Below, piece after piece: positions 12,890-26,588 of a stretch of DNA of 56,326 nt. The notes beneath the pieces were generated by a model. It searched no databases and was not told the origin of the DNA. It saw only the letters and a program-made list of their open reading frames with translations. Every line of letters begins with the position of its first letter. The stretch's first letter is position 1. The translations under genes were made by a program, and so were the position numbers. Origin of the DNA: Candidatus Zipacnadia bacterium (lineage in GTDB: Bacteria; Armatimonadota; Zipacnadia; Zipacnadales; UBA5352); assembly GCA_029820045.1 (NCBI GenBank), contig JALGVE010000003.1:1-56326 (forward strand), in the 5' to 3' direction.

Positions 12890-15865
12890 ATGCGATACTC
12901 ACTCGTTGCTGGCTGGCTACTCGTAGGCCTGGCAACTCCGATCTTCGCGCAGGAGAAGGCTGGAGAGGTGATGGCACCTGTTGTACTGGTCTGGGGCGAG
13001 TACCTGGCGGCCGCCAATCAGCGCGAAGCGCCCGGGACGCATAACTACCTGAAAAACATCGCCAGGGCCCTGGACACCGTCGGTCTCACGTACGAGGAGA
13101 CCAAGGACTCCGAGGTAGAGAAGGGCGCGCTGGAGGGGCACAAGTTCGCGATCTTCCCCTACAACGCCAACCTCACTGACGCCGAGCACGAGGCAATCCG
13201 CCGCTTCGTTGCCGAGGGCGGGAAGATCTGGGCGAGCTTCACGCATGACCCGGTGCTCAATGAGTTGCTGGGAGTGAAGCTCGGTTCGAGCCAGCCGCCC
13301 AAGTACGACGGCTACTACACATATATGATGTTCAACGAGCAGGCGCCCACCGGGGTGCCGGATGCGGTCATGAACGGATCATGGTACAGCCACGTCATCA
13401 CGCCTCTGGAGGGCACGCAGATCATCGCCAACTGGGGCGACGGCGAAAAGAAGGACACCGAGATGCCCGCCATCAGCATGAATGACAACGGCTACTACCA
13501 CGGCCATGTGATGCTTGGAGGCGACATCGCCGAGAAAGGTCAGATGTTCCTGGCGCTCATCGGTCACTTCTTCCCCGAACTGTGGCAGGGCGCCGTCGAG
13601 AAGGCCATCGCCGGCATCGCGGACGTTCACGGCTTCGAGTCGTGGGATGCGGTCGGGAAGGCCATAGAGCAGGCGAAGGCGGAGGGCCGAGACGTGGCCC
13701 TTGCGCAGGAGCGTTTCAGTGCGGCGGGCAAGGCCAGGGCCGCAGCGGAAGACCTCTTCAAACAGGAGAAGTACTCCGAGGCGCTCGACCAGGCCAACGC
13801 CGCGAAGCAGGCCCTGCGCTCAGCCACCTACCCGCTGGCGCGCAGTCGCGAGGGCGAACTGCGCGCCGTCTGGATGAGCGGAGGGGGCGTGGAGGACTGG
13901 GAGGCGGTCATGCAGGACCTCGCCGGCGCCGGCTTCAACGCCGTCTTTCCCAGCCTGTGCGATGCCGGCGGGGCGGATTACGAGAGCGATGTGCTGCCCA
14001 GGTCAAAGAACTACACGCGAGACCAGCTCGCGGCCTGTATCGAGGCGGCTCAGAAGTACAACATCGAGGTGCACCCGTGGCGTATTAACTGGCGGCTGTC
14101 GCGGGCAACCGACGAGCGGAAGGCGGAGCTGCGCGAGGCGGGTCGGCTGAGCAAGTCCAAGGACGGTACGGACGGGGATTGGCTCTGCCCCTCAGATGAG
14201 CGCAACTTCGAGCTTGAGGTGGCGGCGATGGTCGAGATGGCTGAGAAGTACCCCGTGCAGGGCATTCACTTCGACTACATCCGGTACGCTAACAGCAACT
14301 TCTGCTACTGCGAGAAGTGCCACAAGAACTTCGAGCGCGACGCACAGGTGAAAGTTGCCAACTGGCCGCAGGACGTGCTTGCCGGTGGCCCCCAGTACGA
14401 GGCCTTCCAGGACTGGCGGCGAGAGCAGATCACGCGGGTGGTGCGCGAGGTGCACAAGCGGGCGCACGCGATCCGTCCCGACATCGTGGTCTCGGCGGCG
14501 GTCTTCTCCAACTGGCCCTCGTCCCGAGTGTCCATCGGCCAGGATGCCGCCGCCTGGGCGAAGGAGGGCATCGTTGACCTGCTGATGCCTATGACCTATA
14601 CGGACAGTAACGAGAGGCTGTCCGCGCTGACGGAGCAGCACGTGGAGCTGAACAAGGGGAGGGCCATCCTCGGCGAGGGCATCGGCGCCTTCAGCAGCCA
14701 CTCACAGTTCACCGGACCTGACCAGCTTATCCAGCAGATCGAGACCGCACGCGGGCTGGGTGCAGATGGTTTCTGCATCTTCCACTACGGCGCGGGCCTC
14801 AAGGCGGGCTTCCTGCCCGCTCTCGCCGAGGGCTGCACCGGCCCGCGCACCTTCACGCCCATGCTGCACCCGCCGGCGACCTTCAAGGTCAACGGTGATG
14901 CCGAGGGCGAGTGGACCTTCGGCCCGAAGGCGAAACAGATCATCGAGGCAACAATCGAGGGGAGCGGCCCTTGGCCTGAGCCGGTGGCCTCCCTGGACGC
15001 AACGCTCATCTTGCAGGGCCTGGACGGCCGCGACCTGCGGCCCGTCGGAGAGAAGCAGACAGTCGCCCAGGGTCGCAGCGGCACGTGGAACGTTGAGCTT
15101 GCCCTCGAGCCCGCCGCTTACCGCCTGGCTGTCTCCGGGCAGGTCAAGCTGGCGGACGGTTCGACCCGCCCTTACATCTGTCGCAGCCGACCCCTCCGTA
15201 TACTCACCGCCGACGAGCAGGCCCTTCATGAGGGTAAACTGCCAGCGCCCGAGAAAGCCACGGGCAAGCCGCGCGTGGGTGTGCTGATGGACGGCTACGG
15301 CGGCCAGGGCATGATTACCGCGCTGCAGAAGATGCAACAGATCCAGGTCGAGGGCGTGCCCGGGATATCCACCGAGGCGGCGCGCAGGTGCCAGGTGCTC
15401 GTGGTGACTCAGGCGCGCAGCGGCGCCTCAGTTGACGAGAGCCTAGCCCGCGCGCTGCGCAACTGGATCGCCGCCGGCGGGAGCGTGCTTGCCACGCATG
15501 ACGCCGTGGGCTATCGCGGTTACGTGCCCATCGCTCCTGAGGTGTGCGAGGGCGGCGCGGGCCATGACAGGGCAACGAGCGTGGTGGTTGCTGACTCACC
15601 GCTGGTGCCCAAGGAGTACCGGGGCGCGGTCTTCGATCACGCCTTCTTCGATCACATCATCCTGCGAACGGGCGACAAGGGGCAAGCGGTGGTGACCGAC
15701 GAGGCCGGCAAGCCCGTGGTCGTAGTCGGACAGGTGGGCAAGGGCCGCTATGTGGCCTCAGGCATCGCCTTCGGGCTGAACGCCGATACCCGGGAGCAGG
15801 AGCCGACCGACGGCGAGGCCGACCTGCTGCATGAGCTGGTCCTCTGGCTGGCCTCGGCCCACTGA
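12890..15865 (+). CDS. Secreted three-domain protein: amidotransferase/ThuA-like N-terminus, GHL10-type glycosyl hydrolase-like centre, second amidotransferase-like C-terminus
   Basis: 'GELRAVWMSGGGVEDWEAVMQDLAGAGFNAVFPSLCDAGGADYESDVLP' and 'VQGIHFDYIRYANSNFCYCEKCHKNFERD' are GHL10/FenI-like; flanked by 'KFAIFPYNANLTDAEHEAIRRFVAEGGKIWASF' and 'VLVVTQARSGASVDESLARALRNWIAAGGSVLATHDAVGYRG'. Confidence 0.75.
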   Translation: MRYSLVAGWLLVGLATPIFAQEKAGEVMAPVVLVWGEYLAAANQREAPGTHNYLKNIARALDTVGLTYEETKDSEVEKGALEGHKFAIFPYNANLTDAEHEAIRRFVAEGGKIWASFTHDPVLNELLGVKLGSSQPPKYDGYYTYMMFNEQAPTGVPDAVMNGSWYSHVITPLEGTQIIANWGDGEKKDTEMPAISMNDNGYYHGHVMLGGDIAEKGQMFLALIGHFFPELWQGAVEKAIAGIADVHGFESWDAVGKAIEQAKAEGRDVALAQERFSAAGKARAAAEDLFKQEKYSEALDQANAAKQALRSATYPLARSREGELRAVWMSGGGVEDWEAVMQDLAGAGFNAVFPSLCDAGGADYESDVLPRSKNYTRDQLAACIEAAQKYNIEVHPWRINWRLSRATDERKAELREAGRLSKSKDGTDGDWLCPSDERNFELEVAAMVEMAEKYPVQGIHFDYIRYANSNFCYCEKCHKNFERDAQVKVANWPQDVLAGGPQYEAFQDWRREQITRVVREVHKRAHAIRPDIVVSAAVFSNWPSSRVSIGQDAAAWAKEGIVDLLMPMTYTDSNERLSALTEQHVELNKGRAILGEGIGAFSSHSQFTGPDQLIQQIETARGLGADGFCIFHYGAGLKAGFLPALAEGCTGPRTFTPMLHPPATFKVNGDAEGEWTFGPKAKQIIEATIEGSGPWPEPVASLDATLILQGLDGRDLRPVGEKQTVAQGRSGTWNVELALEPAAYRLAVSGQVKLADGSTRPYICRSRPLRILTADEQALHEGKLPAPEKATGKPRVGVLMDGYGGQGMITALQKMQQIQVEGVPGISTEAARRCQVLVVTQARSGASVDESLARALRNWIAAGGSVLATHDAVGYRGYVPIAPEVCEGGAGHDRATSVVVADSPLVPKEYRGAVFDHAFFDHIILRTGDKGQAVVTDEAGKPVVVVGQVGKGRYVASGIAFGLNADTREQEPTDGEADLLHELVLWLASAH

Positions 15866-16214: not shown

Positions 16215-18401
16215 TCATGTGCCCTCATCCAGGCTGTCGTCGAGAATGACCTTCCCCCCGGCGCGCTCCCGGATAACCACCCGACCGGTGAGGGGCCCCT
16301 CCTTCGCAAAGGTCACCTCCGCCTCGGCGTCACCCAGAGTCAGGGCGAGGCGGACCGTGTCCTCCGCTTCGGTCAACGTGCTTTCGGGCCAATCATGCGA
16401 GCCTGAGCCCGTCGCCAGCAGAACGTGGAGGAAGTAGTCGCGTGCGTGGGAGCGAGCGGGGCTGACCTCGATGCGCCAGCGCCCGGCCTCCGCCGGGTCA
16501 TACTCCTTCTTGGGCGGGTAGTTGACGCCGTTGACCTCGAACTCGTGGCCGGGGCCGCCGACGGTAGTGATGTTCGCCTGCGCCGGCAGAAGTGATGCCA
16601 CGGCCAGTCGCCCCTCACCGTTGATGATTTCGATGCGGTCCCCGTCAACCGTCGGCTGCTGCCCGCAGTGCAGCAGCCACTTCTTCTCGAACTCAGGCTG
16701 CGTAGCCTCGACCCGATCGAAGACCACAAAGCAGTCGGGGCGCAGGTACAGGAACGCGCGCGTGAACTCCTTGAGCTTGGAGGGACTGTATGAGCGCGTC
16801 GCGTCGCCGACCACGAAGGTGTACCGGTCCGTCGCCTTGTAGGCCTTGATCTGCGCCCGGTGGTGGGCGTCGCCGGGCGTCACATCGGTTACGAAGTCCG
16901 GCCCGCCGCCGTAGAGCTGGCCGCCATCGTTTGCGCCCTCACCGGGATGGTTGTGGCCCCAGACGCCGCCATCGAACTGCTCCCCGGGATCGGTGACGGT
17001 GACAGAGTTGTGGGCGATGGTGCGGGCGTAGTAGTTGGCCCGATGGGCCGTGGCATCGTAGACCCCGGTGTCCATGGCCAGCAGGGCGCGCTTGTGGATG
17101 ATGAAGCTGTTGTTGTCGCAGTGCTGGTGCCCGCCGAAGTAGATCGGCGCGCAGATGAACAGGGCGAAGGTCGCGTCCGGCTGCCAGGAGCTTCGCATGG
17201 AAACCCAGCCGAGACCGCGGAAGTAGCGACTCAGCGGGAGCTCATCTCGCGGCACCGCAGGCACAGCCGGGTCGTACCAGAGCAGGTACGGCCACCAGGT
17301 CCCAGCGCCGAGCTGGTACTTGACGCCGGCAGCGTCGCGCCGCATCGCCTCCTGCTTGATCTGGTCCGCCCACCAGCCCGCGACGCCATCGCGCCGTCGT
17401 CGTTGGAGCAAGGGCATGTACATTGCGACGCTTCCGTCATAGGAGTCGTGCCCGCCGATGTCCGCCACACTCACGCGGCCGTCATCGAAGGGCCGGGCGT
17501 TGTAGATGAGCCAGTGCGCGTCACCGTCCAGGCCGGTGAAGTCCTTCCAGAGGTCCTGCCCCGTAGCCGATGACCAGAGCTCCACGAGATGAGCGAACTC
17601 GTAGGTGAAGAAGGCGTGGTAGCTCATGCTCTCATGCCAGCCACCGTCGCCAGCCGTAACAATGTCATGGGCGGGCATGAAGTGATTCACGAGCAGGTCC
17701 AGGCCGTCGAGCGCCAACCGGTGCGCGACCTCATCGTCCAGGCCTTCCTGCCAGAGGGCAATGCCGGCGTAGAGTATCGGACCGTACTCCAGGTAGAGAT
17801 GGTTATTGAACTCGGAGTGCCGCCAGGTCTTGTAGCACTGCTTGGCGGCGTGGAGGGCGGCGAGACCGTAGCGCTGTTTCTGTTCGGCAGACAGATCGTC
17901 GTAGAGCCAGTCGTAGGTCATGGCCAGGGACTTGGAAATGCGGGGCCAGGTCCAGCCATCTCCCTGCGCCTCGCTGAGATAGTCGGCGATGGCGACGGCG
18001 TGGCGCAAGATGTCGGGGTCACGCTGCGATACGCGGTAGGCGATAACACAGCCCTGAAGCTGCGAGGGCGTGGCCCACAGGTTCCGGTAGTAGTGCTCCC
18101 CTCTGGCCCACTCCAGGATGAACTCCCAGACCTCGGCGACCGCCGGGGCCGTCTCGCACCGCTGGCGGACCTGGGCAATGTCCGCCTCGGTGCAGAAGAT
18201 GCGGGGATGCTGCTTACGGATCTTCCCAAGCTCCGGCTCCAGCGCCGCCTGAGCCTGCGGATCGCGCCCTCGGAGGTCAGGCCAGTCCGCATAGGCGCAA
18301 CTCGCTAAGACAGCCGCCAGCAGGACGAACCTCAAGCTCACGAACTGGATGGCTCGCATGAGTTCCCTCCTTATCCGCGACTGAGCCGGTCGGCGCTGCA
18401 A
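16215..18401 (-). CDS. Heparinase II/III family protein
   Basis: 'HQHCDNNSFIIHKRALLAMDTGVYDATAHRANYYARTIAHNSVTVTDPGEQF' heparinase II/III-like motif; DUF4962-like N-terminus; signal peptide. Confidence 0.85.
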   Translation of the reverse strand: MQRRPAQSRIRRELMRAIQFVSLRFVLLAAVLASCAYADWPDLRGRDPQAQAALEPELGKIRKQHPRIFCTEADIAQVRQRCETAPAVAEVWEFILEWARGEHYYRNLWATPSQLQGCVIAYRVSQRDPDILRHAVAIADYLSEAQGDGWTWPRISKSLAMTYDWLYDDLSAEQKQRYGLAALHAAKQCYKTWRHSEFNNHLYLEYGPILYAGIALWQEGLDDEVAHRLALDGLDLLVNHFMPAHDIVTAGDGGWHESMSYHAFFTYEFAHLVELWSSATGQDLWKDFTGLDGDAHWLIYNARPFDDGRVSVADIGGHDSYDGSVAMYMPLLQRRRRDGVAGWWADQIKQEAMRRDAAGVKYQLGAGTWWPYLLWYDPAVPAVPRDELPLSRYFRGLGWVSMRSSWQPDATFALFICAPIYFGGHQHCDNNSFIIHKRALLAMDTGVYDATAHRANYYARTIAHNSVTVTDPGEQFDGGVWGHNHPGEGANDGGQLYGGGPDFVTDVTPGDAHHRAQIKAYKATDRYTFVVGDATRSYSPSKLKEFTRAFLYLRPDCFVVFDRVEATQPEFEKKWLLHCGQQPTVDGDRIEIINGEGRLAVASLLPAQANITTVGGPGHEFEVNGVNYPPKKEYDPAEAGRWRIEVSPARSHARDYFLHVLLATGSGSHDWPESTLTEAEDTVRLALTLGDAEAEVTFAKEGPLTGRVVIRERAGGKVILDDSLDEGT

Positions 18402-19698: not shown

Positions 19699-19937
19699 TA
19701 ATACTGTTCGCCGGCGGCCCTGGCAAACCTACCAGTACCGTCCCCCATGCAAGAACCGCCCGCCGCGAACGTATACACATATGAGGGGAAAACTGTGGCA
19801 AGGGGGGAAGTTCATCAGCGCCAGTCGTACGTGACGCGATGCGAGATCTGCTCAAGAGTCACGTCCGGCTCATGTCGCCGAACATGGCCCGCGCAGGGAT
19901 GTTGGCGCGCATTATTCACGAGCTTACCCTCGGCGCC

Positions 19938-20045
19938 TATCCAGGGCGGTGGGCCGTTGGGGACTGACACCATTTCGGGCGTTCCCGCCCATGGGCGGGA
20001 CCCGAAATGGCTGTCTGTCCCCCTGTAGGGGTGGCTGAGGCTCGC
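19938..20045. repeat. Long-hairpin repeat, family D copy 1 (direct repeat with 24376-24490)
   Basis: 'gactgacaccatttcgggcgttcccgcccatgggcgggacccgaaatggctgtctg'; folds as a ~64-nt hairpin 19959-20022. Confidence 0.9.
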
Positions 20046-20288
20046 CCAACACACTGCGCTAGCGGCGGAAATGGCGGACAGTGCACGACAACCACAGCAA
20101 CAGGGCACTGCGCCGGATTCCCGCCGCCCCGCATGGTACGCATGAATAATGCGGGTTAGTGGTACTGAGGTCCAGCAAGGATACCGCGGTCGTGCCGGCG
20201 AACTTGACGCGGGGACGCGCGTCGTATGCCTGGTCGGCCAGAGGGGCCCGGTGGCGAGGCACAGCACCAAGAGAGCTGGTGAGCGCCG

Positions 20289-22118
20289 GTGACAGACCCC
20301 GAACTGGAAGGTTTCAGCGTTGATGTGTCCAGCCTGATCGAGGTGCTGTCAGGTCACCTCTACACGACCCCGGAGGTGGCCATCCGGGAACTGATAGCCA
20401 ACGCGCGCGACGCAATTGTCAGGCGGCGGCGCGCCGAAGGCGACATAGAAGGCGGCATCTGGATCGGGGTAGACCGAAGGGAGAACGTCCTCGCGATCCG
20501 CGACAACGGCGCCGGGATGAGCGAGGATGAGATCCATGCAGGCCTCAGCACCATTGCTGCTTCGGGTGCCCGCGCGGTTCGTGACTGGCAGGATTCAGGC
20601 GGTCTGGACGAAGCGCTCTCCGGGCTGTTCGGGCTGGGGTTCTATGCCTCCTTGATATGGGCCGACCGCATCGAGGTGTTCACGCGCACCGCGGCAGGGC
20701 CCCTCTTCCGCTGGCAGTGCGTCAAGACGCCCTTCCAGCCTGAGGAGAAGACGGCGATCGGCTGGGGTCTGCAGGAGGTGCCGGATGTTGAGGCCTCCTG
20801 GGTAGGATGTGGAACCGAGGTCAGGCTCCACCTGGCTGCGAGGGAGCGCAACCCCCTGGCGGACAGCGAGGAGCTGCGCAAGCTGCTCCTACGGTACGCC
20901 GCTCTCGTGGAGTTCCCCATCTACCTGGGCGAGGAGTTTCAGCCCCTCAATCCTCCCCCGCCCTGGCGCTCCCGGCAGGCTACCGACGAGGACTACCTGG
21001 ACTTCGTCCGCCGACGCGGCCTCCTGAGCGATACCGATGACCCTATCACTGTATTCCCCATCAGCGCCATCGGCCTCGAGGGCTTGCTGTGGATTACGCC
21101 TCGGCGAGATGGTGAGATCGAGCTGCACGTGCGCCACATCCTGGTCGGACCCCTGCAGGACGCGGACACAGAGGAGCCTTTCCCCTTCGTCCATGGGATC
21201 GTGGACGCCAGAGAAATAGACCTGGCGCTAAACCGGGAAGCCGCTCTCGATAACGAGAACCTTGCGGCTCTGCACGCGGCCCTGAGAAGGGCAACCATAG
21301 ACCACTTGAGCTGGCTGTCGCAGAACCGGCGCGCTGACTTCCAGCGTATCGTTGACGCCCATGAGTTCGCGCTCAAGAAGGCCTGCCTGGAGGAGGACAG
21401 GCTCCTTGGGATTGTCGGCGACAGCCTGCGTCTGGCGGTTGGCGGCTCGCGCACGATGATGAGTCTTCGGGACATAGCGAACCATGCTCGCGGCCACGGT
21501 GGCGTGCTCTACTTCCTCGATCAGCCTGCTGAGCAGACCCACTACGCATCCCTGTATGAGGGCAAGGGCATTCCAGTCGTGGATACCTCAAACCCACTCG
21601 ATCTCGCGGTGGTCAGACGTTATGCGGAGGCTGAGGGTCTGGAGTTCGAACGCGCGGATACCGGACTCACCGAACTCGTCGAACCGGGAGGCGAGCCCGG
21701 ATGGGGAGAGGTGGAACACCTCTTCGCCAGCATAGACGCCCAACTCCAACCGCGCGCCGTCTCACTCCAGCCCACTGACCCGCCGCTGCTTTTTGAGCAT
21801 TCCTCGCTGGAAGCGTTTGTCGGCATGATTGACCAGATAGGCGGAGTGCCCGAAGAGATGCAGGGCCTGGAGCTGCTACTCGAGGCCATGCGAGACCGCG
21901 CGAAGGAAGAGGCGCGTCCCTTACTCATCAATGCCGGCCATCCCGTCATGCAGGCGCTTCGCAGGGCCCTGGACAGTGGCGAGGACTATGGCCGCGTGGT
22001 GGCCGCGGGGCGGGGGCTGCTAGCGGCGGCCCGACTGTTCAGTGAGACGCTTGACGCCGGCGAGCGGCGAGATGCCCTGGAGCAGTTGGCTGACCTTGTT
22101 AGTGCCCTGTTGCGTTAG
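20289..22118 (+). CDS. Divergent HSP90/HtpG-type GHKL ATPase (copy 1)
   Basis: GHKL motifs 'AIRELIANARDAI' (E..N..DA), 'IRDNGAGMS' (DxGxG), 'LSGLFGLGFYASLIWADRIEV'; HSP90 middle-domain-like 'GIVDAREIDLALNREA'. Confidence 0.85.
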   Translation: MTDPELEGFSVDVSSLIEVLSGHLYTTPEVAIRELIANARDAIVRRRRAEGDIEGGIWIGVDRRENVLAIRDNGAGMSEDEIHAGLSTIAASGARAVRDWQDSGGLDEALSGLFGLGFYASLIWADRIEVFTRTAAGPLFRWQCVKTPFQPEEKTAIGWGLQEVPDVEASWVGCGTEVRLHLAARERNPLADSEELRKLLLRYAALVEFPIYLGEEFQPLNPPPPWRSRQATDEDYLDFVRRRGLLSDTDDPITVFPISAIGLEGLLWITPRRDGEIELHVRHILVGPLQDADTEEPFPFVHGIVDAREIDLALNREAALDNENLAALHAALRRATIDHLSWLSQNRRADFQRIVDAHEFALKKACLEEDRLLGIVGDSLRLAVGGSRTMMSLRDIANHARGHGGVLYFLDQPAEQTHYASLYEGKGIPVVDTSNPLDLAVVRRYAEAEGLEFERADTGLTELVEPGGEPGWGEVEHLFASIDAQLQPRAVSLQPTDPPLLFEHSSLEAFVGMIDQIGGVPEEMQGLELLLEAMRDRAKEEARPLLINAGHPVMQALRRALDSGEDYGRVVAAGRGLLAAARLFSETLDAGERRDALEQLADLVSALLR

Positions 22119-22136
22119 AGGAAGTCACAGGAGCTG

Positions 22137-24251
22137 ATGGCGATGTCCGAGGCAGACTGGCAAGACGTTGATATTCAGATTGATCTCGCCGACCTGCTTC
22201 CGCTGGTCGCGCGAAGTCTCTACCCGCGCGCCGATGCGGCGGTGCGCGAGCTACTCGCCAACGCCGTGGACGCGCTCACCCGGAAGGATGATGTCATCCG
22301 CGCCAACCCAGGCATGTACCCCGAGGACCTGGAGATAAGCGTGAATTACGACGTGAGCAACTACGTCCTGACCGTCGCCGATACTGGCTGCGGGATGGCC
22401 TGGGATGATGTGATCAAGTACGTGAACCACATTGGCCGTTCCGGTACTGAGCTGATGAAGGACGAGTTCCAGAACCGCGAACTCATTAAGCAGCTAATAG
22501 GTCAGTTCGGGATCGGCCTGCTGGCCGCGTTCAAGCTGGGCCAGCCTGTGACCATCCGGACCCGCGCGCTTGATGCGGCGGCCGACGAGGCGGTCGAATG
22601 GCGGGCGACCGGCACGACCAGCAAGGCGCAGATGCGCAAGATCTCGAGGGATAAGCCCGGCAGCGAGATAGCGGTGGCTGTAGCGCTGGAGCATCGCGAG
22701 ATGTTGCTCACAGGACTCAAGGAGTGCGTCAGCGACTACGGTGACTTGCTCCCGTATCCGATCTACGACGCCTACCGGGAGCTGCTCAACTCCTACGGCA
22801 AGGTCCCGTGGTACAAGGATGACCAGACGGAAGAAGACTACAGGGAGTACATAGTCTCGCGGCACAAAGGCGAGCCCATCAATCCTCCGCTCTGGGTGAT
22901 ACCGATCACCCCCCGATCAGTGCGCCTCGACGGAGAGAACATCCCGGTGGACTGTCGGGGGGTCATCTACATCCCCGACGACAGGAGCTTCATCAACCTG
23001 CACGGCAACGCCGACCTGTACTCGCGCTCCATGCTCGTGCGCAAAGAGCGCCCGGGCATCCTGCCCGAACACGTGTTGTTCTGCGAGGCGATCGTTGACG
23101 GAGCAGACCTGAGCATGGTGATGAACCGCGAAGACGTCATGGAGGACCGGGCCTTTCGGGCCATGCAGGTAGCCGTAGCCGAGCAGCTCTACGCTGGACT
23201 GGGGGAGCTCGTCAAGAAACCCAAGGAGTGGCGGCGCGTCCAGTCCACGTTCGAAAGGGAGCTCAAGGCCGGAGTAGTCAAGGACGACGGCGTCTTCAAG
23301 GCGGTGGCTGACCACCTGGTGTTCTTCATAGGCGCTGGGGAGAGGCAAAGCTTGGGCCAGTACATGCAGAGCGCTCAGAGCCGAGGCCTCTATGACGAGC
23401 AAAAGGGCGAAGTTGTGTATCAGCCCAGTGACCTGACGGATGCCCAGCGGGAGACCCTGGCAGCCCTGCGCAAAACTCTGATCTTCATCTCCTCGGCCAG
23501 CGGGCCAGCCCGCTATCAGATGGACCAGTTGCTGCTCGCGCGGGGCCTGCGAGCCATCGAGGTCCTACCGGAACCGTCCGTGGACGAGGAAACCGGGGCG
23601 GTGGTCTCGCGTGCGGAACGCAGCCTTGATTGGCAGGTGCTCAACAAGTACGCGCAGGCCAACAACCTGGAACTCAAAGCCGCCGGGGAGCTGGTCGAAA
23701 AGTTCCCGGAGATGAGCGACCCGAAACTGGAACGGGTTGCGGAGGTCTTCCGCACAGCCCTGCACTCCGGTGAGCGTGGGATGACTGTCCGCATAAGCGC
23801 GTTTCACCCCGACGGCCTCCCGGCGCTGCTCGACTTCCCCACGGCGGGCCGCGCGCGGGAACAAGTCCAAGAGTGGCGGCAAGCTCTCGAGGCGTTCATT
23901 GAGCAACACCAGGATGCGCCGCGGGGCCTGCAGCAGGTCATAAGGATGGCCGAGGCTCAGGCCGCGGTAGAGGACAGGACAGCCACCTTGGTAGTGAATG
24001 CTAAGAATGACACGATACAGCAGTTGGCCGACGCCCTGGATGACCCCAAGTTCCGTAGCCTGGACAGGACCGAGCGTGTCACGGAGCACATCGCGATCGA
24101 GCTCTACCATGCCGCCCTGCAGCAGACAGGCTACCAGCCCGATGACCGCAACATGAGCGCAATCCTGGCCGCCCGCTGTGCGGCAGTCGAGCAGCTCCTT
24201 TCCCTGAGTCTGCAGGTGGCGAGCACCTTGCCCGACGGCATGGCGCAATAG
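22137..24251 (+). CDS. Divergent HSP90/HtpG-type GHKL ATPase (copy 2)
   Basis: 'AVRELLANAVDAL', 'VADTGCGMAWDDVIKYVNHIGRSGTELMKDEF', 'LIGQFGIGLLAAFKLGQPVTIRTR', 'AIVDGADLSMVMNRED'; 18-bp gap from copy 1. Confidence 0.87.
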   Translation: MAMSEADWQDVDIQIDLADLLPLVARSLYPRADAAVRELLANAVDALTRKDDVIRANPGMYPEDLEISVNYDVSNYVLTVADTGCGMAWDDVIKYVNHIGRSGTELMKDEFQNRELIKQLIGQFGIGLLAAFKLGQPVTIRTRALDAAADEAVEWRATGTTSKAQMRKISRDKPGSEIAVAVALEHREMLLTGLKECVSDYGDLLPYPIYDAYRELLNSYGKVPWYKDDQTEEDYREYIVSRHKGEPINPPLWVIPITPRSVRLDGENIPVDCRGVIYIPDDRSFINLHGNADLYSRSMLVRKERPGILPEHVLFCEAIVDGADLSMVMNREDVMEDRAFRAMQVAVAEQLYAGLGELVKKPKEWRRVQSTFERELKAGVVKDDGVFKAVADHLVFFIGAGERQSLGQYMQSAQSRGLYDEQKGEVVYQPSDLTDAQRETLAALRKTLIFISSASGPARYQMDQLLLARGLRAIEVLPEPSVDEETGAVVSRAERSLDWQVLNKYAQANNLELKAAGELVEKFPEMSDPKLERVAEVFRTALHSGERGMTVRISAFHPDGLPALLDFPTAGRAREQVQEWRQALEAFIEQHQDAPRGLQQVIRMAEAQAAVEDRTATLVVNAKNDTIQQLADALDDPKFRSLDRTERVTEHIAIELYHAALQQTGYQPDDRNMSAILAARCAAVEQLLSLSLQVASTLPDGMAQ

Positions 24252-24375
24252 CTTTCTCTCTGACGACGTGCAGGAACCGCACAGATGCGCCGGTGTTCCT
24301 ACCTAGCGCGGAATATGCCCAGAAAGCCGTCGCCGGAACATCCGCAGAGCGCTGCTGGCCCGCACTATTCGGGCT

Positions 24376-24490
24376 TATCCAGGGGGGGGGGCGGGTCGTT
24401 CGGGACTGACACCATTTCGGGCGTTCCCGCCCTTGGGCGGGACCCGAAATGGCTGTCTGCCCCCCCCCGTGGGGATGGCTGAGGCTCACT
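24376..24490. repeat. Long-hairpin repeat, family D copy 2 (direct repeat with 19938-20045)
   Basis: 'gactgacaccatttcgggcgttcccgcccttgggcgggacccgaaatggctgtctg', one difference from copy 1 over the 56-nt core; anchors are 4442 bp apart. Confidence 0.9.
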
Positions 24491-24630
24491 GCGCGGGCGA
24501 GGCTTCGCGAGAGGGCGGTGCAGGATGGTACCCTGGAGCGAGATGGAGCCCGAGAAGTTCTGCCGGCAGCGCTTGGGGTGGCCCCCCCTCAGGAACCGAG
24601 TTTCCCCAGGGGGAGTTCCATTCCCTGACT

Positions 24631-24656
24631 GTTGCAAGCCTCGTACGAGGTGCAAC
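24631..24656. promoter_or_regulatory. 26-bp imperfect palindrome upstream of the CHAT gene
   Basis: gttgcaagCCTCGTACGAGGtgcaac; 12-bp perfect core; ends ~58 bp before the GTG start at 24714. Confidence 0.5.
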
Positions 24657-24713
24657 ATAGCCTTGGCTCCTCGCCGCAACTTGCTGGCCCGGTGAGAAGG
24701 GAGGTCGTACCCA

Positions 24714-26588
24714 GTGAGATTCTCGCTGCACATTGACTCCGGCGGCGGCGAGGATGACCCTTGGCAGATGAAGCTTGTTGACGAGGATGGCGCTCAGAAT
24801 GTCTTGGCAGAGGCGGAAGTGCCATCAGCCTCTGTCGAGGGGCTTCGGGCGGAGGACTTTGGGGATTGGAAGACCCTCATGAATGATCCCAGAGAGGGGC
24901 CGGGGATCGGGAAACACATAGGCCGCAAGCTCTGGGCTGCCTGGTTCGGCAGCGGGGAGGGCCGCAATCAGGTGGGCGAGACGCTGCTGGAGCTTCAGCA
25001 CGGCAGCCCGGGTCTGCAGGATAGCGAGCTTCTGCTGTGCTCCTCCGATCCCTGGGTTATCGGCCTGCCTTGGGAGTTGCTGTTGAGCGATGGCGATGCC
25101 GGCGAACAGTACCTGGTGGGCGCCTATGACATGACGCTGGCTCGCGTCTTCTCACAGTATTCGTTGAGACCCGCGCAATGCCCGCCTGTGAAGGCGTGGT
25201 TCGGCCTCGCCTGCCCCGCAGAGGGAGATCTACACGGCTTCGATACGAAATGGTGTTTCGATGAGATCCAGTCTCTACGAGAGCGCTGGGGGGTGTATGT
25301 AGAATCCGATGTCAACTGCTGGCCCTCTGCAAGCGAGTTCTGCACCGCTCTGCGCGAGAACCACATAGTGTACTTCGTGGGACACGGCAGCAACCAGGGC
25401 CCGCCAGCGCACGAACGCCAACCCGGCCTTTGGCTGGTCAAATCACGCGATACTCTTGCAGGTGAGTTCCTCCCCGCGAGCGATATCGCCATGAACTTGA
25501 ACCGGGGCGACCTGAGCCTACTGGTGCTGAATTGCTGCTGGTCAGTAGACGTGGCGCTGGCCATCTACAAGTACTGGGCCTCGAAAACCCCGGGACCGCA
25601 GAGCCTCCCCACCATCGTGGCCACGCAGTGGGAATGGGCGGTGCCGAAGGCTTTTCATTTCCAGAAGGACCTCTTCGACGCTTTAGTGTTGCAGCGTCAC
25701 GCCAGCATCAGTCATGCGTTTACGAGGTATCGCAGCCGATTCGTACAAGCTGAGGACCTGGAGGAGACAGGCTGTTTCTGGGCGACACCAACGGTCTTCA
25801 CTGGCAGGTCCAAGCCTGGCGGCAGTTCCGGGCGCAACCTGCAGCCCATCCGCCTGACCGCAGAGACCCCCGATGAGGCGGGCCCTCTTGGACTGAGCGC
25901 GGAACAAGTGGAACTGCTGCTGGCTTCGTCGGAGGGCCGAGGCTCCCCCTTCCTGCCGCAGGACGCTGCGGTGCGAGGGCACTGGAGGACGTCTCTGCAG
26001 CAAATGCAGGCCAGCGGCCTCTATCAACCTCAGACCAGCGTGGGGGCTTTCGAGATTGACATCCTGCCCGTCACCGTGCAAATGTACGAGCGCGTGCGCG
26101 AGGGACATAGGCGGCAGCTCGCGCCTTCAGCCGGTTCCGCGCTCGATGGCTGGAACGCACCCGCGTTGGTCACTTTCGATGATGCCAGGCGGTTTTGCGA
26201 GATCGTCGGAGGGTTGCGACTGCCCACCCGCCAGGAGTGGGAACGTGCCGCCAGGGGGACCGCCTCCTGCATCCTGCCCTGGGCAGACGCAGACACCGAG
26301 GCCGAACTGCGAAGGTACGCAGACCAGGCCCGGAACCTACTGTCCAACGTCTACGAGGCTGGCCAAGGTGGACTGACGTCCGTTTTCTGGTCAAGTCGCG
26401 GGGCCAGCCCTTACGGCGTGCGAGACATGATAGGCAATGCCCCCGAATGGGCACTTGATGGTAGCAGCGCCGCGATTATGGGAAGAGGATGGCGCTACCC
26501 GTTGATAGCTAATATACCGAGCTACTTCTGGCGCCCGCAGGACCCGGCAGGGCATCACTGTTCCTTCCGCTGCGTCGTCGTGCGCTGA
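24714..26588 (+). CDS. CHAT (caspase-like) protease domain fused to C-terminal FGE-sulfatase (C-lectin-fold) domain
   Basis: CHAT features: 'DPWVIGLPWELLL', His motif 'HIVYFVGHGSN', Cys motif 'DLSLLVLNCCWS'. FGE-like features: 'EIDILPVTVQMYERV', 'GGLRLPTRQEWERAARGT', 'YGVRDMIGNAPEWALDG', 'GRGWR...FRCVVVR'. GTG start with RBS aagggaggt. Confidence 0.85.
   Translation: MRFSLHIDSGGGEDDPWQMKLVDEDGAQNVLAEAEVPSASVEGLRAEDFGDWKTLMNDPREGPGIGKHIGRKLWAAWFGSGEGRNQVGETLLELQHGSPGLQDSELLLCSSDPWVIGLPWELLLSDGDAGEQYLVGAYDMTLARVFSQYSLRPAQCPPVKAWFGLACPAEGDLHGFDTKWCFDEIQSLRERWGVYVESDVNCWPSASEFCTALRENHIVYFVGHGSNQGPPAHERQPGLWLVKSRDTLAGEFLPASDIAMNLNRGDLSLLVLNCCWSVDVALAIYKYWASKTPGPQSLPTIVATQWEWAVPKAFHFQKDLFDALVLQRHASISHAFTRYRSRFVQAEDLEETGCFWATPTVFTGRSKPGGSSGRNLQPIRLTAETPDEAGPLGLSAEQVELLLASSEGRGSPFLPQDAAVRGHWRTSLQQMQASGLYQPQTSVGAFEIDILPVTVQMYERVREGHRRQLAPSAGSALDGWNAPALVTFDDARRFCEIVGGLRLPTRQEWERAARGTASCILPWADADTEAELRRYADQARNLLSNVYEAGQGGLTSVFWSSRGASPYGVRDMIGNAPEWALDGSSAAIMGRGWRYPLIANIPSYFWRPQDPAGHHCSFRCVVVR

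Follow-up and report, generated by a model that had tools for sequence, protein, structure and literature searches.

A candidate HSP90-controlled conflict cassette: two divergent HSP90 ATPases and a CHAT-FGE protease in 'Candidatus Zipacnadia'

The HSP90 pair

The window, the whole stretch of DNA analysed, comprises 56,326 nucleotides (56 kb) of contig JALGVE010000003.1 from a metagenome-assembled genome (MAG) of 'Candidatus Zipacnadia', a class of Armatimonadota; this MAG, the source for all searches of the window's own genome, is 60% complete. Its plus strand carries three consecutive open reading frames (ORFs), present just as an earlier note on this DNA had described them, which encode two divergent HtpG-like ATPases, HSP90-1 (20289-22118) and HSP90-2 (22137-24251), and a fusion protein, CHAT-FGE (24714-26588), with a predicted CHAT (caspase-like) protease domain and an FGE-sulfatase-like domain.

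HSP90-1 (609 aa, GTG start) and HSP90-2 (704 aa, ATG start) are encoded 18 nt apart and are paralogues of 24% identity, as the earlier note had supposed. Both match the HATPase_c_3 family (E 2e-10 for HSP90-1, 4e-8 for HSP90-2) and the HSP90 family PF00183 (E 3e-7 and 5e-13, respectively), and the HtpG model aligns with nearly the full length of each (E 2e-57 and 1e-61). The N-terminal domains possess the catalytic glutamate (Glu34 in HSP90-1, Glu38 in HSP90-2) and the glycine boxes of the Bergerat fold (DNGAGM and GLFGLGFY in HSP90-1, DTGCGM and GQFGIGLL in HSP90-2), and the middle domains possess an arginine (Arg316 and Arg331, respectively) within NRE motifs. The two proteins thus share with HtpG, the bacterial HSP90, its full-length architecture and conserved ATPase residues, but they are considered divergent because their scores against the curated HtpG model (NCBIfam NF003555, 195 and 209 bits) are about half of the cut-off of 371. 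They differ from HtpG also in being fixed tandem paralogues and in branching outside the HtpG clade of a phylogenetic tree, which was built quickly, has long branches and is to be read as indicative. By score and by tree position, neither protein qualifies as an equivalog of the housekeeping HtpG.

The CHAT-FGE protein

The third gene encodes a protein of 624 aa (GTG start) in which the association of a His/Cys protease of the CHAT type with a C-terminal FGE-sulfatase fold, noted earlier from the sequence, is borne out by matches above curated cut-offs. The CHAT domain (25011-25547, plus strand, residues 100-278) matches PF12770 with E 1e-11 (45.3 bits, cut-off 24), and the FGE-sulfatase-like domain, of the C-type-lectin type (26028-26459, plus strand, residues 439-582 plus a C-terminal tail), matches PF03781 with E 4e-18 (66.5 bits, cut-off 23.3). 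The catalytic dyad of the CHAT domain is represented by His224 (codon 25383-25385) within the motif VYFVGHGS and Cys275 (codon 25536-25538) within LLVLNCC; H224, C274 and C275 are invariant in the alignment of CHAT-FGE with its sole close relative. CHAT-FGE is therefore predicted to be a CHAT protease of family PF12770 with an intact His/Cys dyad. An AlphaFold2 model of the protein was poor (predicted local distance difference test score, pLDDT, 38) and was used for the CHAT fold match alone: a Foldseek search with this low-confidence model gave a single PDB match below 1e-3, the SAVED-CHAT protease 8tl0 (E 7e-4).

In PDB alignments, the FGE-like part shows similarity to SUMF2, FGE, CalU17 and TvpA, a variable protein of Treponema. 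Its only cysteines near the C-terminus, C616 and C620, lie at the usual structural position of the FRC motif, a region before which the PDB alignments end. On inspection, the catalytic cysteine pair of FGE (SYC...YRC) appears absent, and for this reason the domain is best described as FGE-like and an oxidase role looks unlikely. Variation of the domain by a diversity-generating retroelement (DGR) was considered and dropped, as no template-repeat-like copy of the 3' end of the gene (26380-26588) was found in its own 60% complete genome, a search that did not extend to reverse transcriptases.

A second cassette in unrelated surroundings

In a family mate of the window MAG, the 'Candidatus Zipacnadia' MAG designated G004, the genes HSP90-1, HSP90-2, an extra gene of 446 aa and CHAT-FGE succeed one another on the same strand, which is the arrangement of the window apart from the extra gene. 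The protein identities between the two genomes are approximately 40-46% across the three genes: 41% by alignment (40% by BLAST) for HSP90-1, 45% for HSP90-2, and 41% for CHAT-FGE (L017:14007-15905). The four genes of G004 are tightly packed: the HSP90-1 and HSP90-2 ORFs abut, the extra gene follows after a gap of approximately 90 nt, and the CHAT ORF after a further gap of 28 nt (as measured between listed ORFs). The extra gene has no Pfam or PADLOC match, and the CHAT-FGE protein of G004 has no PADLOC match either.

Comparison of all ORFs of the window with the 38.8-kb contig of G004 found exactly three genes in common, namely those of the cassette. Because no gene outside them is common to the two stretches, the HSP90-HSP90-CHAT-FGE set is, to judge by this comparison, a discrete cassette rather than a remnant of inherited local synteny. 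In both genomes CHAT-FGE comes immediately after the HSP90 pair (with one gene between them in G004), and the surroundings in G004 are otherwise wholly different, which supports the view that the three genes form a functional unit.

Among 291 genomes of the phylum, close relatives of CHAT-FGE are found in two, the window MAG and G004 (a third match, in G096, is weak), and the full-length HSP90 pair is found in the same two. The earlier note had staked its proposal on homologues of the three genes being neighbours elsewhere, the HSP90 pair not usually lying in an unrelated housekeeping operon, and both of these CHAT-FGE genes are indeed downstream of an HSP90 pair. Within the family, the cassette is present in two of ten genomes, a patchy distribution as expected of an accessory module; a conserved multi-gene cassette with such a distribution is what a conflict module would present. 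No relatives were found in scans of IMG/VR viruses with HSP90-2 and CHAT, or in a plasmid search with CHAT.

Surroundings of the window copy

The intergenic stretch between HSP90-2 and CHAT-FGE (24252-24713, plus strand) counts 462 nt, one fewer than the 463 nt given in the earlier note, which had the 18-nt gap right. The extra gene of G004 occupies this place, and no remnant of it was found in the 462 nt. The idea that the extra gene is essential was rejected, since the window cassette does without it. Two direct copies of a 121-bp palindromic repeat, 87% identical, flank the HSP90 pair (19935-20055 and 24373-24487). A transposable unit bounded by these copies was considered and rejected, as the repeat is a dispersed element with approximately 17 locations in the genome and is not specific to the cassette.

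The flanks of the window consist of housekeeping and carbohydrate-metabolism genes according to an ORF and Pfam scan of its 56 kb. Upstream of the cassette and unrelated to it are two genes for polysaccharide degradation, one encoding a heparinase-type lyase similar to HepB (16215-18401, minus strand) and the other resembling GHL10 glycosidases (12890-15865, plus strand).

Relatives in other families and phyla

Tandem HSP90-1 and HSP90-2 genes of the cassette type are known in three genomes, the third being a Gemmataceae MAG (L032) that has orthologues of both (35% identity for HSP90-1, 34% for HSP90-2). The tree pairs each of them with its own counterpart in the window (SH-like approximate likelihood ratio test, SH-aLRT, 95 and 99). 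This tandem is the sole case in 392 Planctomycetota genomes, scoring 1004 bits versus 210 bits for the next best matches, which resemble ordinary HtpG. The L032 contig ends 78 bp past HSP90-2, where the protease would begin, and no CHAT relative was found in the rest of the assembly.

Five members of a sister family (f4; loci L022-L026; genomes G030, G032, G012, G028 and G025) encode a single HSP90, which lacks the catalytic glutamate and the glycine boxes, beside a putative pseudo-CHAT protein of 746-850 aa that lacks the cysteine. CHAT is a weak best match (E 0.008) in one of the three pseudo-CHAT proteins scanned, and this family furnishes weaker evidence because the assignment depends on that one marginal match and on motif inspection; an AlphaFold2 model of a pseudo-CHAT (pLDDT 42) was not used. 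The arrangement suggests that the partnership of HSP90 with CHAT may be older than the cassette, and that the partners can lose catalysis together.

Neighbours of other divergent HSP90 genes

A scan of species-representative genomes gave at least 80 HSP90 loci, the matches listed including genes of the HtpG clade and approximately 16 outside that clade. TPR genes are found at about 9 of these approximately 16 divergent loci, a clear enrichment (9/16, versus at most 1/16 HtpG control loci; p 0.003 or less). Genes typical of conflict systems are also found at several of the loci. In an Anaerolineales contig (L033:382-5699), HSP90, TPR, TIR (ThsB-like) and SLOG cluster3 genes follow one another in a single run, a candidate HSP90-containing conflict operon. 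In L021 (G123:C350), a ThsB-type TIR gene (PADLOC ThsB, E 1e-65) is directly upstream of a divergent HSP90 gene, within which the contig ends, and a divergent SLOG-patatin gene is present as well. A Thermoflexus sp. contig (L087:4169-11293) has the run TPR, TIR, TPR, TPR and divergent HSP90, and L020 has a TPR-CHAT gene 1.7 kb from a divergent HSP90. On plasmid ABRG53a of Pseudanabaena (L206:8213-13795), a TIR gene is transcribed divergently from the gene of an HSP90 of 877 aa. A TPR gene is located downstream of the latter, and genes for an N-6 DNA methylase and for a DEAD/DEAH helicase are nearby. L029:5244-12139 encodes two HSP90-like proteins in tandem (960 and 571 aa), which adjoin an esterase-like/nSTAND1 protein, and the larger of the two has a weak C-terminal match to Pycsar cyclases (E 2e-4). 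The recurrence of TIR, ThsB-TIR, SLOG, patatin and TPR-CHAT neighbours in several unrelated genomes supports a conflict setting.

Proposed function and alternative explanations

That a distant relative carries the same cassette amid unrelated genes suggests an HSP90-operated switch for immunity or cell suicide. To the most likely explanation, that two divergent HSP90s control a CHAT protease equipped with an FGE/lectin-like recognition domain, as a conflict module for immunity or regulated cell death, we would give roughly an even chance. HSP90-1 and HSP90-2 may act as a pair, perhaps a heterodimer, given that each has its own orthologue in a second phylum and that the tandem has been kept there. 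By analogy with the families concerned, the pair may bind CHAT-FGE as a client and, in an ATP-dependent manner, either keep it inactive or license its folding; the protease would be released when the FGE-like domain senses a trigger or when the HSP90 cycle is disturbed, and would then cut host proteins, leading to a halt of growth.

The conflict or immunity-type system envisaged in the earlier note thus fares well as regards the three-gene unit and the effector-type neighbours of divergent HSP90s elsewhere, and less well in several other respects, all of which weigh against such a function. The complete cassette is very rare, both known cases coming from a single family. The genes around the window copy include none recognisable, within the 56 kb, as part of a defence island or as a phage or mobile gene, and the PADLOC models cover none of the three proteins, giving weak matches to N-terminal domains at most. 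Co-transcription of the HSP90 pair with CHAT-FGE is not certain in the window, because CHAT-FGE is set off by 462 nt that include the dispersed repeat, and the poor structure models (pLDDT 38 and 42) provide no evidence of contact between HSP90 and CHAT. The enrichment of effector-type neighbours near divergent HSP90 genes is marginal: TIR, CHAT or SLOG neighbours were found at 4/16 divergent loci versus 0/16 HtpG loci (one-sided p 0.05, or 0.17 if one control match was missed; single-member families are not listed). Furthermore, in Pseudomonas aeruginosa (L204:9902-14143) and Xanthomonas (L205:9947-14170) the gene that comes after a divergent HSP90 gene is large, with a TPR annotation in Xanthomonas, and the surroundings are ordinary; this HSP90-TPR pair gives the impression of a core unit with no part in defence. 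Because these pairs sit in ordinary surroundings, a divergent HSP90 alone is no marker of defence, and the rule that divergent HSP90s are defence genes was rejected, the effector enrichment being marginal besides.

The main rival to the conflict module, appreciably less probable in our estimation yet to be taken seriously, is a dedicated proteostasis or stress-response operon, in which the two HSP90s, together with the CHAT protease, would constitute a quality-control module for damaged proteins and have no role in defence. It would account for the fact that divergent HSP90 genes are most often paired with TPR genes, of the classic co-chaperone type, for the ordinary chromosomal surroundings in Pseudomonas and Xanthomonas, and for the position of the window copy among housekeeping and carbohydrate-metabolism genes; however, occurrence in two of ten genomes of a family is atypical of housekeeping proteostasis, the cassette appears to have moved as a unit between surroundings, and other divergent HSP90s recurrently adjoin TIR, SLOG, patatin or CHAT genes. 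An explanation that we consider rather unlikely makes the HSP90s themselves the primary sensor and switch of a broader conflict family whose effectors (CHAT, TIR, cyclase, esterase-STAND) are interchangeable; the window would hold the CHAT version of it, with an FGE-like domain that binds the HSP90s and not a pathogen molecule. Effectors do seem to be exchanged among these loci, from CHAT (the window, G004 and L020) to ThsB-TIR (L021), TIR (L033, L087 and L206) and an esterase-nSTAND protein beside a weak cyclase-like tail (L029), but each association is known from few genomes, the HSP90 branches are deeply diverged and uncertainly placed in the tree, and the statistics of effector neighbours are marginal. 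That CHAT-FGE is an independent gene, downstream of the HSP90 pair by chance, might be argued from the 462-nt gap with its dispersed repeat and from there being two known instances and no more; this we judge very improbable, as it is largely refuted by G004, where CHAT-FGE keeps these neighbours and this gene order, the flanks share nothing with the window, and gaps between listed ORFs are under approximately 100 nt.

Comparison with known systems

If the cassette is a conflict module, its closest functional parallel may be the chaperone-thresholded ternary conflict systems, MoxR-vWA-VMAP and relatives (Kaur et al. 2020, PMC7159879; Kaur et al. 2021, PMC8195603), which likewise are accessory multi-gene cassettes with an ATPase chaperone predicted to gate a protease effector and with lectin/FGE-like sensor domains among their components. 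The chaperone of the cassette, however, is HSP90 rather than a MoxR AAA+ protein with vWA, and a scan of the neighbouring genes in the window and G004 found no MoxR AAA+, vWA, VMAP or EAD adaptor; by this analogy the cassette would work like a chaperone-gated conflict system without belonging to the MoxR-vWA class. Another parallel is with the putative antigen sensors diversified by DGRs, which have CHAT, TIR and FGE/CLec domains (Dore et al. 2024, PMC10907252). Their conflict loci include, in a single set, both CHAT proteases and C-lectin folds of the FGE type, the latter C-terminal and proposed to act as sensors, but those loci have no HSP90, and the window's incomplete genome has no template-repeat-like copy. 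None of these three publications (PMC7159879, PMC8195603, PMC10907252) mentions HSP90.

The caspase-like CHAT domain with its His/Cys dyad is shared with the type III-E TPR-CHAT protease (Craspase), with SAVED-CHAT, which gave the sole significant fold match, and with Borvo; PF12770 is carried by Borvo and type III-E (PMC10952713). The cassette differs from them in having no TPR, SAVED or CRISPR component, in the fusion to an FGE-like domain, in the partnership with an HSP90 pair, and in the absence of a PADLOC match. GHKL ATPase domains are also proposed to control linked effectors in the defence proteins Shedu VcSduA (PMC12137116) and paraMORC of restriction-modification loci (PMC3710099). 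There, they are N-terminal domains fused to effectors such as nucleases, whereas the cassette encodes two separate full-length HSP90s and a protease.

NLR immunity in eukaryotes depends on HSP90. In bacteria, phage sensing by a NACHT protein has recently been linked to the chaperone DnaJ (PMC12169576), and the literature searched, which mostly excludes subscription journals, contains neither an HSP90-CHAT system nor a dedicated HSP90-run bacterial immune module. It is conceivable, if doubtful, that a dedicated HSP90 heteropair, and not a STAND NTPase, MoxR or a nucleotide signal, serves as the ATP-driven switch of a caspase-like effector in bacterial immunity or cell death, in a prokaryotic counterpart to the way in which HSP90 controls NLRs in plants and animals, and that the CHAT-FGE cassette is one version of a wider HSP90-gated family with TIR, SLOG, patatin or CHAT effectors. 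If so, whether HSP90-gated immunity had forerunners in prokaryotes could be put directly to the test with the two short operons, and divergent HSP90s would provide a handle for finding new systems with TIR and CHAT effectors.

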